Assembly: GCA_018052455.1 (NCBI GenBank)
Contig: JAGPNE010000001.1
Coordinates: 124,761 to 188,760, forward strand
Length of the DNA: 64,000 nucleotides
Reading direction: 5' to 3'
Source of the DNA: Candidatus Fermentithermobacillaceae bacterium
GTDB taxonomy: Bacteria > Bacillota > Sulfobacillia > Fermentithermobacillales > Fermentithermobacillaceae
The notes under the pieces were generated by a model. It was not told where the DNA came from, did not search any database, and saw only the letters and a list, made by a program, of their open reading frames with translations. Positions 27,719 to 38,780 of the stretch are shown in pieces (the stretch's first letter is position 1; the number at the start of each line of letters is the position of its first letter). A program made the position numbers and the translations under genes.

Positions 27719-27945
27719 AAAAAAACCGCCCCCGTAGGGACGACTCATGCCGTGGTACCACCCACATTGATTGCATTTTCTACAATCCTCTCAAAAGCTC
27801 TATAACGTGAGCGATACGAACCGGCTTACTCAGTTTTTCAGCCGTTAACTCAGAGGTGATATTCGAATGGACCTTGGCACCGGCTTCTCACCTTTCGCCG
27901 ACTCTCTTTGACCAGCATCCATCTACTCGTCCTCGTCATAGTTCT
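27719..27945 (-). promoter_or_regulatory. T-box riboswitch (Ile) upstream of ileS
   Basis: The T-box sequence TGGGTGGTACCACG is at 27764-27751. Stem I (about 27942-27846) has the AGTAGA and GAGA-type bulges and an ATC isoleucine specifier at 27860-27858. A terminator follows: CGTCCC/GGGGCG with a TACG loop and seven T (27742-27719). Uncharged tRNA-Ile should pair with the specifier and the T-box bulge and prevent termination, raising ileS expression. Confidence 0.92.
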
Positions 27946-27960
27946 TCTCTTATTCATAAA

Positions 27961-28045
27961 TGGTGTCGGGAGCGGGAATCGAACCCGCACGGGATTTCCC
28001 ATACGCCCCTCAAACGTACGCGTCTGCCTGTTCCGCCATCCCGAC
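27961..28045 (-). tRNA. tRNA-Leu (anticodon GAG)
   Basis: Class II tRNA on the minus strand: acceptor GTCGGGA pairs with TCCCGAC, the anticodon loop TTGAGGG gives GAG (28011-28009), a long variable arm GGGA/TCCC and a T arm GCGGG-TTCGAAT-CCCGC follow, and CCA is encoded (27963-27961). It ends only about 15 bases before T-box stem I of ileS, with a strong promoter upstream. Confidence 0.97.
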
Positions 28046-33830: not shown

Positions 33831-34319
33831 TTGTTTCTTGTGTCATCTTGCTTGTGCGGAAATAAGTGCCGCTATGACGGTTCGGCAGAAGATGTGGACA
33901 AATATCCTGCTATTCGTGGGCTGATAAGCTGCGGTCAGGCAGTACCTGTGTGCCCTGAGGTCTTAGGGGGCTTGGCAATCCCACGTCCTGCGGCAGAGAT
34001 TATAGGTGGCAACGGTCTTTATGTACTTCGGGGAAAAGGCAGAGTTTATAGCATAGCCGGTGATGATGTAACCGAGAAGTATCGGGGAGGTTCCTTTCGG
34101 GGCTTGCTTATAGGTCTGCAGACAGGCTGCACTACCGCGATCCTGAAGTCCAGAAGCCCTGCATGTGGGATAGGATTGGTATATGACGGCACCTTTAGGA
34201 GAAATCTCGTCCAAGGCGACGGAGTGTTTGCGGCGCTGCTTGCAAACTACGGGTTCAGTCTGTTCACCGAAGAGACTTTTAGCGCAGACAATAAAAATGG
34301 TGCCGAAGGTGGGATTTGA
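33831..34319 (+). CDS. DUF523 family protein
   Basis: Small cysteine-rich protein of unknown function. Family marks are VSSCLCGNKCRYDG at the N-terminus, the VPVCPEVLGGL and PRPAAEI segments, and the LKSRSPACG motif, whose cysteines suggest metal or Fe-S binding. I chose TTG 33831 (162 residues, family length) because AGGAGG lies 7 bases upstream; the longer open frame to 33690 overlaps divergent dacF. The C-terminal codons run 22 bases into the antisense tRNA-Leu gene, so the last seven residues (GAEGGI and neighbours) are the complement of the tRNA 3' end. Confidence 0.85.
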   Translation: MFLVSSCLCGNKCRYDGSAEDVDKYPAIRGLISCGQAVPVCPEVLGGLAIPRPAAEIIGGNGLYVLRGKGRVYSIAGDDVTEKYRGGSFRGLLIGLQTGCTTAILKSRSPACGIGLVYDGTFRRNLVQGDGVFAALLANYGFSLFTEETFSADNKNGAEGGI

Positions 34320-34384
34320 ACCCACACAGGCGTAAGCCTACGGCGCCCTGAACACCGCGTGTCTGCCTATTCCACCACTTCGGC
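34298..34384 (-). tRNA. tRNA-Leu (anticodon CAG)
   Basis: Class II tRNA: acceptor GCCGAAG pairs with CTTCGGC, the anticodon loop TTCAGGG gives CAG (34350-34348), with a long variable arm (GTAGGCTTACGCC region), a T arm TGGG-TTCAAAT-CCCA and encoded CCA (34300-34298). Its 3' end overlaps the end of the convergent DUF523 gene. Confidence 0.97.
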
Positions 34385-34441: not shown

Positions 34442-34453
34442 GACACACTAGAC

Positions 34454-34832
34454 CCCGCCATGCCGTGAACCCGGAAGGCATGAACCTGCCCTCAGCAGGT
34501 GGGTGCCCTCCTGAAGACATCTGCGCTTCCGCTTGACGCGACATGCGCTCCGCCTGTCAGAGTCGAGGCTCCCTTATTCACGGTGTTGGGCTCAAGCTTC
34601 ACCGTGATTCACGCACACAGCAGGGTGTATTTCCTTACTGATGCCTTTGCCAACTTGATTCTAACACTCGCAGTAGAGTGATTGCAAGTTGTTGTGTGAA
34701 GGCACCTTAGCTCGTCAGGCTCGGACCGTATGTCGACCCGGCATGTCGAAAATATGTCAATGCATACCATTGCTAATAGCGGGTGTCGAGGATATCATTC
34801 TTGAGGAATACCGAAATGGGAGGAGTACATTC
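34454..34832 (+). other. structured stretch upstream of folT, candidate ncRNA
   Basis: No credible gene lies in these 380 bases, but the plus strand folds well: CATGCC/GGCATG (34459-34464, 34477-34482), ACCTGC/GCAGGT (34484-34489, 34495-34500), GGGTGCCCTC/GAGGCTCCC (34501-34510, 34565-34573), TCACGGTG/CACCGTGA (34578-34585, 34600-34607) and a nested stem 34643-34703. The size and rod-like middle would suit a stable RNA such as 6S, but I could not match a known family, nor a THF or other vitamin riboswitch. ATGTCGA recurs at 34730, 34743 and, as ATGTCAA, 34754. Confidence 0.35.
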
Positions 34833-35387: not shown

Positions 35388-38300
35388 TCATTGAAACAAC
35401 GGTAGCTGAGCAGTTTCGGGTAGGTCCAAGAGTAGCCCATGGTCCTTCATTGCTTCGCACACTCTTTTGCCAATTCCGGTCCGCTTCCTGAAGTCCTCTA
35501 TGGATTCAAAAGCCCCTTCTTCCCTTGACTTCACGATAGATGAGGCAGCCTGATTGCCAATCCCTGGGATGGCTGTAAAAGGAGGAATGAGTTCACATCC
35601 TTTAGGCACATATCTTGATACCTCAGAAACATAGAGATCGCACCGCCCGAAACGAAAACCTTTTTCGGACATCTCTATGGCAAGTTCGAGAGCACTAGCA
35701 ATGTCTTGTTCCCTCGCTGTTGCTGAAGAATTAGCACCTACTTTTTGGATGTATTCTCTCCATTGTGTTTGTTCTTGGTACATATAGTCAGTAGTTAGAG
35801 AAGATCCGGCAAAAGAGAAGTAAGTTGAATAGAAAGCCAGTGGGTAATGGACTTTGTAGTAGGCTATCCTGAATGAGTTCGTAACGTAAGCCACCGCATG
35901 TGCTTTTGGAAATAGGTAGGTGATCTTTTTGCACGAATCAATATACCAGTCTGGCACTGATACAGATTTCATCATGGAAATATCTTCATCTGACAAGGGC
36001 ATGCCTTTTCTTACCTTCTCGGCTATGCTGAATGCTAGAGAAGACTCCAACCCAAGTTCCATAAGGTACAAGAATATGTCCTCCCGGGTTGCAATAACTT
36101 GATCAAGGGTAGCCAGGTTCTCGCGAATCAGCTCGCGTGCGTTATTTGCCCAGACGTCGGTTCCATGGGAAAGGCCCGAAATCCTCACTAGGTCTGCGAA
36201 GCACTTGGGTTTTGTTTCTAACAACATGTTTCTTACAAATCTGGTACCGAATTCAGGAATCCCCAATACCGCATCTGGATCTTCTCCAGAAAAAAGCCTC
36301 AGTGTCTCAGGATCGTCCATTGGTATTGAAATGGGATCTAGGCCCGTAAGCTCGTGCAGAATCTTGAGTACAGTAGGATCGTCGTGCCCAAGAATATCTA
36401 GTTTCACAAGATGCCCTGAAATAGCGCTGTAGTCAAAGTGTGTTGTTATGGAACCAGACTTTCGATCATCAGCAGGGTATTGAAGTGGTGTAAAATCGAG
36501 CACTTCCATTCCTTGAGGTATTACCATGATCCCTCCGGGATGTTGGCCTGTGGTCCTTTTTACTCCCTCTATGCCTTTAGACAGCCTCAATTCCTCAGCC
36601 CTTCTGAATACTCTGCCTGTACTTTCGCCATAGTGCTTGACAAATCCAAATGCGGTCTTGGTGCCAATGGTACCAATAGTCCCGGCTCTGTATACATTCT
36701 TTTTGCCTAGCAGTTTAGATGCGAATTTGAATATCTCCGCTTGCTCTTCGCCAGAGAAATTCAAGTCAATATCAGGTACCTTTTCACCCTTAAAACCCAT
36801 GAACGTCTCGAAAGGAATGTTTTGCCCATCTTTCGCAAGTTCTGCACCGCATTTGGGGCACTTTGCAGGTGGAAGATCAAATCCTGAGTGAAATGCGGTG
36901 TCGCTGACAAACTCGCTGAAACAACATTTGGGGCACACGTAGTGGGGAGGCAATGGGTTGACTTCAGTAATACCCGCTAGCCTCGCAACTAGGGATGACC
37001 CTACAGAACCTCGAGATCCAACTAGGTACCCGTCTGACTTGGACTTTTCTACCATTTTCACTGCTATTAGGTATAAAGAAGAGAAGCCGTTGTCAATGAT
37101 GGCCGAAAGCTCCTTGTTGACTCTTTGCTCAACGATTTCGGGCAGTTTTTCCCCGTAGATGCGCTGCGCTCCTTGTCGAGTAAGGTCCATCAACACTTGA
37201 TCCGAGTCTTCAAGGGTTGGGTAAAAGAACCCCTCTGGAATTGGCGGTAGATCCTCCACTAGACCTGCGATAAACTGGGGGCTTTCAATCACTACTTCCC
37301 TGGCTGCGTCGTTTCCTAGATAACTAGAGAATTCGTCCAATAGTTCGTTAGTAGTTCTGAGGTACAAAGGGCTGGGCCGCTCACCGTTCTCGTTCATCCC
37401 CTTGCCCGCAAGCAGCAGGGTTCTGTATATTTCGTCTTCCGGCTCAACAAAGTGCACGTCCCCAGTTGCAACGCATGGTTTGCCAAGCTTCTTGCTTAGC
37501 TCATAGATTCTCTTGTTAATATCTATAAGTGATTGCCTGTCAGAGACGTCGCCTGTATCTACTAAGAAAGCATTGTTGTCCAGAGGCTGGATCTCGAGAT
37601 AGTCGTAGAATTTAGCGATCTTCTCTAGCTCGTCATCGGATTTGCCTGCAACGATTGCTCTGTATAGCTCACCCGCTTCACATGCAGAACCTACCAGCAA
37701 GCCTTCCCGTCTGTCAGCAAGGCATTGTCTGGGTATTCTAGGAGTCCTGTAGAAATGTTCAAGGTGCGATAGTGTGACAATCTCGTACAGATTTCTCAGG
37801 CCTTTTTTGTTTCGGGCCAGAAGAATTATGTGGAAGGCCTGGTCTTTTGCATTTTCTTCAACTAGATAGCCTTCTATGCCAAGGACTATTTTGATGCCAT
37901 ACTTAGCTCCCAACCGGTATGCGTCGGGGAAAGCCTGAACAACTCCGTGGTCTGTAATAGCAATTGCAGGATGTCCCCAGCGAGCTACTGTGGAAATGGC
38001 CTTATCCAGATCTAAGACAGAATCAAGAGCCGACATTTTTGTATGTAGGTGGAGTTCTACCCGCTTGCCATCGGATTCGTCCTGCCGTACTTTGGGTTGG
38101 GCAACGCAGAGATCATTACAGATGAGCGTTGGTTCTGAATCCATACGGTCTATCCTGATCCTGCCCCGGGCTAGTACCCAGATGCCTTCTCTAAGCTCAT
38201 GGACCTTCTCTTGTCCTGGAAAGATCCTCATGCTTATTGAGTCAACGTTATCGGTGAGTACCACAATGCCACAAAAATCGCCGGACTGAGTCTGCTTCCA

Positions 38301-38780
38301 TACAACGTCTACGACCAACCCCAGTATTGTTACAGTTCCTTTTTCTCCGCCAGTTATGTCTTTTATGGGCACAGGTTCGGTATGGATTGGTTTTCCTATC
38401 AATACACCATTTTGCTTCGGCTTGCTACCTGCGGTACTTCCGTTACCCAGTCTGAGAGATTCCTTAGAGAAATACTTTTCATATTCCTCCGAAAACTCCC
38501 AAGATACTGTAGACAGCGTTGGCACGCAGTTCCTTATCCCTTGTCCTATAGTAGACAGGCACACCTCAAATTCATCTGTTGTGATTTTGGAGGCGTTCTT
38601 GGTCCATGACTCAGTGTCAGGGATCTCGACGAAAATACACCATGCTGCGTTTTTTGTGTCGACAGTTATCGAAGATACCTTGAGGGCTGCTACAACTGCA
38701 TCTACATCAAGGTTTAGAGTTCGTGCCATCTGTTCCAAAGTGAAATTGGAAGAAGACGGCTTTACTACCGTGCGGCTCAA
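35388..38780 (-). CDS. polC: DNA polymerase III alpha subunit, PolC type, without exonuclease domain
   Basis: Replicative polymerase of the Gram-positive PolC family. Order: a poorly conserved N-terminal region, an OB domain (about 140-230), the PHP domain (HLHTKMS at 244, ITDHG near 276, GIEGY near 301, GDVHF near 430), then the PolC zinc finger (CPKC ... CPKC, about 620-660), the palm with PDIDLNFSG near 665, and a C-terminal HhH. The usual 3'-5' exonuclease inserted in PHP is missing: sequence runs from GIEGYLVEEN straight to FHIILLARN. Hence 1130 residues, against roughly 1400 for complete members. The PHP metal ligands look intact. Start TTG 38780, GGAGG 7 bases upstream, overlaps the ispG stop. 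Confidence 0.95.
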   Translation of the reverse strand: MSRTVVKPSSSNFTLEQMARTLNLDVDAVVAALKVSSITVDTKNAAWCIFVEIPDTESWTKNASKITTDEFEVCLSTIGQGIRNCVPTLSTVSWEFSEEYEKYFSKESLRLGNGSTAGSKPKQNGVLIGKPIHTEPVPIKDITGGEKGTVTILGLVVDVVWKQTQSGDFCGIVVLTDNVDSISMRIFPGQEKVHELREGIWVLARGRIRIDRMDSEPTLICNDLCVAQPKVRQDESDGKRVELHLHTKMSALDSVLDLDKAISTVARWGHPAIAITDHGVVQAFPDAYRLGAKYGIKIVLGIEGYLVEENAKDQAFHIILLARNKKGLRNLYEIVTLSHLEHFYRTPRIPRQCLADRREGLLVGSACEAGELYRAIVAGKSDDELEKIAKFYDYLEIQPLDNNAFLVDTGDVSDRQSLIDINKRIYELSKKLGKPCVATGDVHFVEPEDEIYRTLLLAGKGMNENGERPSPLYLRTTNELLDEFSSYLGNDAAREVVIESPQFIAGLVEDLPPIPEGFFYPTLEDSDQVLMDLTRQGAQRIYGEKLPEIVEQRVNKELSAIIDNGFSSLYLIAVKMVEKSKSDGYLVGSRGSVGSSLVARLAGITEVNPLPPHYVCPKCCFSEFVSDTAFHSGFDLPPAKCPKCGAELAKDGQNIPFETFMGFKGEKVPDIDLNFSGEEQAEIFKFASKLLGKKNVYRAGTIGTIGTKTAFGFVKHYGESTGRVFRRAEELRLSKGIEGVKRTTGQHPGGIMVIPQGMEVLDFTPLQYPADDRKSGSITTHFDYSAISGHLVKLDILGHDDPTVLKILHELTGLDPISIPMDDPETLRLFSGEDPDAVLGIPEFGTRFVRNMLLETKPKCFADLVRISGLSHGTDVWANNARELIRENLATLDQVIATREDIFLYLMELGLESSLAFSIAEKVRKGMPLSDEDISMMKSVSVPDWYIDSCKKITYLFPKAHAVAYVTNSFRIAYYKVHYPLAFYSTYFSFAGSSLTTDYMYQEQTQWREYIQKVGANSSATAREQDIASALELAIEMSEKGFRFGRCDLYVSEVSRYVPKGCELIPPFTAIPGIGNQAASSIVKSREEGAFESIEDFRKRTGIGKRVCEAMKDHGLLLDLPETAQLPLFQ

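Follow-up and report, generated by a model that had tools for sequence, protein, structure and literature searches.

The window analysed here, a stretch of 64,000 nucleotides from a Candidatus (Ca.) Fermentithermobacillaceae bacterium, an uncultured Firmicute, carries on its minus strand a polC gene whose product, a PolC-type alpha subunit of DNA polymerase III, has no DnaQ-like exonuclease (Exo) inserted in its PHP domain. The open reading frame (ORF) begins with a TTG start codon preceded by GGAGGG, and its 5' end overlaps the stop codon of ispG in a gene run ordered dxr, rseP, ispG, polC. The gene and the parts of its product are located as follows.

35388..38780, minus strand: polC, encoding the Exo-less PolC-type alpha subunit of DNA polymerase III, 1130 amino acids (NCBIfam matches above cut-off and identity to structure 3f2b)
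38466..38780, minus strand: N-terminal region (residues 1-105), shortened and predicted to form a single beta-alpha subdomain, with residues 106-123 disordered (AlphaFold2 (AF2) model and length comparison)
38085..38363, minus strand: OB fold, spanning about residues 140-232 and lying before PHP, the PolC arrangement (model strands 147-227; alignment to 3f2b and 9qpc)
37371..38069, minus strand: PHP domain, about residues 238-470, unbroken, with all nine ligands (PF02811 at 242-392; motif HHDHEHCDH)
38022..38051, minus strand: PHP ligands H244, H246 and D253
37947..37949, minus strand: PHP ligand H278
37830..37874, minus strand: Exo-insertion site without Exo, E303 to H317, a closed beta hairpin (junction alignment and model)
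37680..37682, minus strand: PHP ligand C367
37452..37460, minus strand: PHP ligands D441 and H443; D441 is the counterpart of catalytic D226 of Mycobacterium tuberculosis (Mtb) DnaE1 and is Asn in Geobacillus kaustophilus (Gka) PolC
36396..36773, minus strand: stretch holding the polymerase aspartates D670, D672 and D795
35394..35408, minus strand: C-terminal beta-clamp-binding motif QLPLF, residues 1125-1129 (read from sequence)

Identity and architecture of the polymerase

The protein is a bona fide PolC without Exo. It scores 1333.8 bits against NCBIfam NF001688 (cut-off 873) and 1228.8 against TIGR01405 (cut-off 1043), and shares 48% identity with Gka PolC (3f2b) in a model-based alignment. 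Pfam detects the PHP, DNA_pol3_alpha, finger and HHH domains, the three catalytic aspartates are invariant in 156 of 156 PolCs compared, and a four-cysteine zinc motif is present (C616, C619, C641, C644). The other hallmarks of PolC are likewise found, namely an OB fold N-terminal to PHP, a PHP-Pol3-HhH core and the C-terminal clamp motif described for PolC (PMC3919608); membership rests on the match in sequence and structure and not on the Exo hallmark.

The absence of Exo and the continuity of the PHP domain, both proposed in the initial annotation, were confirmed by several lines of evidence. The main profile alignment begins at residue 311-312 of the protein and at position 376 or 611 of the profile, and the Exo part of the profile therefore has no counterpart in the protein. 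Alignment to the Enterococcus PolC (9qpc) passes from 432 (residue 310 of this protein) to 637 (residue 313), skipping about 200 residues. Relocation of Exo within the protein was considered and rejected: no RNase_T domain was matched with Pfam even at an E value of 10, and the sole DxE triplets (residues 55, 214, 382 and 823) are not accompanied by the other residues of an exonuclease motif, as the same annotation had maintained. Only 14 residues separate E303 from H317, and across the sample used for junction and ligand comparisons (156 PolCs of adequate length; 85 Exo-less, 71 Exo-bearing) this distance between ligands 5 and 6 is cleanly bimodal, with 13-85 residues where Exo is lacking and 211-222 where it is present. 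At 85 residues, the longest Exo-less junction is that of L137 (genome G203), where a low-complexity linker occupies the Exo site.

In the AF2 model (mean pLDDT 88) a hairpin of strands 297-307 and 316-322 closes the Exo site. The structural alignment to Geobacillus PolC that had been put forward as a check superposes the model on 3f2b with TM scores of 0.83/0.94. The crystallised Gka protein, a deltaN-deltaExo construct, has the same fold and domain order, but its lack of Exo and of the N-terminal domain was engineered to allow crystallisation, whereas the Exo loss of the window PolC is natural; ligand 8 also differs, Asp (D441) here against Asn743 in Gka. The protein is indeed short against the canonical length of about 1400 residues, yet this has two causes, because Exo loss accounts for no more than about 200 residues of a deficit of roughly 310 and the remainder reflects a shorter region before the OB fold (about 130 amino acids in this family against a median near 220 elsewhere), modelled as one subdomain followed by a disordered linker.

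It is extremely improbable that the assembly is wrong here or that another full-length polC escaped detection. The window genome is a 92% complete draft, which leaves some room for either, but one PolC and one DnaE were found in it with no second or full-length copy of PolC, a finding that had been named as one that would overturn the proposal, and the same architecture occurs in all PolCs sampled from the order Ca. Fermentithermobacillales (19/19), including that of the closed, one-contig genome G004; an assembly artefact was rejected on this ground. Over the aligned core, the Exo-less PolC of G004 does not differ from the one encoded by CP062796 (Ca. Fermentithermobacillus carboniphilus). 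The DnaE of the window genome (contig C29) is of the DnaE1 type (NF005298, 1390.8 against a cut-off of 1260). The window's genus (genomes G000 and G001) has one DnaE, and a further DnaE-like gene, its product about 1040 amino acids long, occurs in most of the other members of the family; many genomes of the same class, e.g., G038, G040, G057 and G060, encode DnaE-type polymerases alone, with neither a PolC nor an RNase_T protein.

Distribution and history of Exo in PolC

Absence of Exo is clade-wide, as the proposed phylogenetic check found, and about half of the PolCs sampled across the phylum are Exo-less when scored by continuous alignment across residue 312. Exo-less PolC is common in some groups of Firmicutes and is already described as a kind (Timinskas et al. 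2013/2014, PMC3919608): 6% of PolCs, in Clostridia and Negativicutes, were reported without Exo and paired with DnaE1 (Timinskas et al., PMC3919608). The window PolC is like these in its Exo-free architecture, intact PHP site and DnaE1-type partner; it differs in its shortened N-terminal domain and in coming from Ca. Fermentithermobacillales, a class-level lineage unnamed there. This lineage lies outside Clostridia and Negativicutes, its nearest named relatives being Ca. Fermentithermobacillaceae of the class Ca. Fermentithermobacillia, which is a difference of range and not of architecture. An already well-described clade was among the refuting findings named in the initial annotation, and by that test the architecture is not novel. 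This analysis adds how often Exo was lost, how strictly the PHP site is kept and that some Exo-less genomes have no detectable DnaQ.

One early insertion of Exo into PolC followed by repeated, independent losses in Firmicutes is the most likely history and the best fit to the trees, because Exo changes state many times (15 changes on the tree of 156 PolCs, 12 on a tree of 47), a single Exo-less clade is rejected (approximately unbiased test, p 1.1e-8) and the Exo-domain tree follows the core tree, with 36 of 68 splits in common where 0.14 would be expected at random and one of 22 strong splits in conflict. The converse history, in which the ancestral PolC had no Exo and the lineages now carrying the domain acquired it, had been named beforehand as a challenge to the proposal. 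The PHP exonuclease has been put forward as the ancestral proofreader, to which the insert would have been added afterwards (PMC5636811), and the DnaE-rooted tree, with its basal polytomy, does not place the PolC root and is uninformative on gain versus loss. The shared splits speak against ancestral absence, however, as do an insertion site and length shared by all Exo-bearing PolCs and the strongly supported nesting of the Exo-less L055 within Exo-bearing Oscillospiraceae; ancestral absence is accordingly considered quite improbable, and repeated loss fits the trees better.

The PHP metal site and DnaQ-family proteins

With Exo gone, the initial annotation had pointed to a separate DnaQ-type subunit or to the PHP domain itself as the possible proofreader, and these are the correct alternatives to weigh. 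Numbered after the published Gka PolC positions (PMC3666897), all nine PHP ligands are intact in the window PolC (H244, H246, D253, H278, E303, H317, C367, D441 and H443; HHDHEHCDH). Their integrity had been predicted, with one correction: in the DH pair assigned to the site H278 is a ligand and D277 is not, that place being taken by D253. The complete site is present in 85 of 85 Exo-less PolCs against 46 of 71 Exo-bearing ones, and none of the 156 lacks both Exo and the full site. The 25 Exo-bearing proteins with altered ligands (from Leuconostoc, mycoplasmas, Hydrogenibacillus, Thermosipho and three others) all retain an Exo with readable DEDDh residues, and every inferred PHP loss sits on an Exo-bearing branch, though about half of the total branch length is Exo-less. 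Such retention is consistent with a need for PHP after Exo loss and is not proof of that need. The DnaE of the window genome also keeps all nine PHP ligands.

The DnaQ-family proteins of the window genome are limited to a DnaQ-BRCT protein of 287 amino acids (G000:C20:21667-22125; L005:1489-2352:+), which is rare in the family, and a DnaQ-DinG fusion of 865 amino acids encoded outside the window (G000:C18:1937-4531; L007:1937-4531:+). The latter is the sole RNase_T match in G004 and in most family relatives, and the RNase_T search gave no match in the Exo-less genomes G034 (99% complete), G025 (92%) and G001 (92%). The suggested search for a DnaQ in the genome thus recovered these two proteins, neither kind of which is conserved alongside Exo loss. 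A stand-alone epsilon as conserved partner was rejected, given that relatives have only DnaQ-DinG or nothing and that the DnaQ-BRCT protein is not conserved in the family.

The DnaQ-DinG proteins of this family and its sister family (f1 and f2; 14 examined) have all lost Walker A, DEAH and motif VI of the helicase and keep the DEDDh exonuclease motifs intact, whereas nearly all homologs from other families of the class retain most of the three helicase motifs. Several cysteines of the iron-sulfur (FeS) region are retained in DnaQ-DinG. About 190 residues past the DxE, most f1 genera have a peptide resembling a clamp-binding motif (QLSLF, QPSLF, QPALF, QRALF, QLRLF or QLLLF), which is absent from the helicase-intact homologs save for one off-register QANLL. 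A QxxLF peptide placed after the exonuclease in this way gives the layout of Escherichia coli epsilon.

These features raise the possibility that DnaQ-DinG, as an ATPase-dead helicase with a clamp-like motif, might proofread for PolC in trans in this order. The retention of DEDDh alongside the loss of the ATPase motifs in all 14 proteins, the epsilon-like layout and the 124 bits that its exonuclease scores against the PolC Exo profile would agree with such a role. Set against it, the protein was not found in G001, which belongs to the same genus as the window genome and is 92% complete, and no DnaQ protein was found in Exo-less G025 and G034; the peptide ends in LL in the window genome (QPCLL) and lacks the Gln in genus g2; and in Bacillus subtilis, where a backup role of dinG in proofreading was put to the test, its loss lowers mutagenesis, the opposite of what a proofreader would do (PMC12525004). 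This role in trans is thus regarded as rather unlikely. A fuller scenario for Ca. Fermentithermobacillales, in which a former repair helicase lost its ATPase motifs, kept DEDDh and gained a clamp peptide to become an epsilon-like subunit replacing the PolC Exo, would be a long shot. No ATPase-dead form is described in the passages searched of a 2025 review of DinG-like proteins.

Probable proofreading by the PHP domain

It is probable that this PolC lost its PHP-inserted Exo and that mispaired 3' ends are removed by its own PHP domain. In the mechanism proposed, the chromosome would be copied by PolC together with DnaE1, and the metal-loaded PHP domain of PolC would cleave off mispaired 3' ends, as in Mtb DnaE1; metal binding, 3'-end cleavage and use in proofreading within the cell are what we infer for the PHP site of Exo-less PolC. 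PHP proofreading is favoured because Exo is absent, the nine-ligand site is kept throughout the Exo-less PolCs, the PHP domain of DnaE is intact and no stand-alone DnaQ is conserved across Exo-less genomes. Proofreading of this kind is established for Mtb DnaE1 and for Thermus alpha subunits (PMC5636811, PMC3666897). The window protein has all nine metal ligands of Mtb DnaE1, the catalytic Asp among them, D441 at position 8 being the counterpart of D226, which is catalytic in the mycobacterial enzyme (PMC5636811); it is nevertheless a PolC and not a DnaE, its loop beside the site has 13 residues against 29, and its exonuclease activity is putative.

Several observations weigh against this reading. 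Many Exo-bearing clostridial PolCs also have all nine ligands, so that an intact site does not mark Exo loss in particular. A sign test of Exo loss against PHP integrity on independent pairs was not significant, with too few informative pairs, since the site is likewise kept in most Exo-bearing relatives of the Exo-less proteins. Moreover, the PHP domain of Gka PolC, the sole PolC PHP reported as tested, is inactive, although it has Asn at ligand 8, where Mtb D226 is catalytic, and the domain may be retained for structure (PMC3666897). PolC of this lineage might not proofread at all, and fidelity would come from base selection, the PHP domain of DnaE1 acting in trans and MutS-dependent repair. 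The intact PHP ligands of DnaE, MutS-family proteins in 17 of 17 genomes searched and the inactive Gka domain would suit this account, but the full site is kept in 85 Exo-less PolCs across many independent lineages, and it is judged unlikely.

For proofreading by the PHP domain of PolC, the count of losses, the strict PHP retention and the DnaQ-free genomes together make the proposal directly testable. PolCs that lack Exo but keep the PHP site whole form a natural test case, dozens of them being available across twelve or more changes of Exo state. If the site is active, PolC lineages would have returned repeatedly to zinc-dependent PHP proofreading.

Elsewhere in the window, also on the minus strand, lie a T-box leader (27733-27948), a 6S RNA (34448-34629) and two tRNA genes (27964-28045 and 34301-34384).
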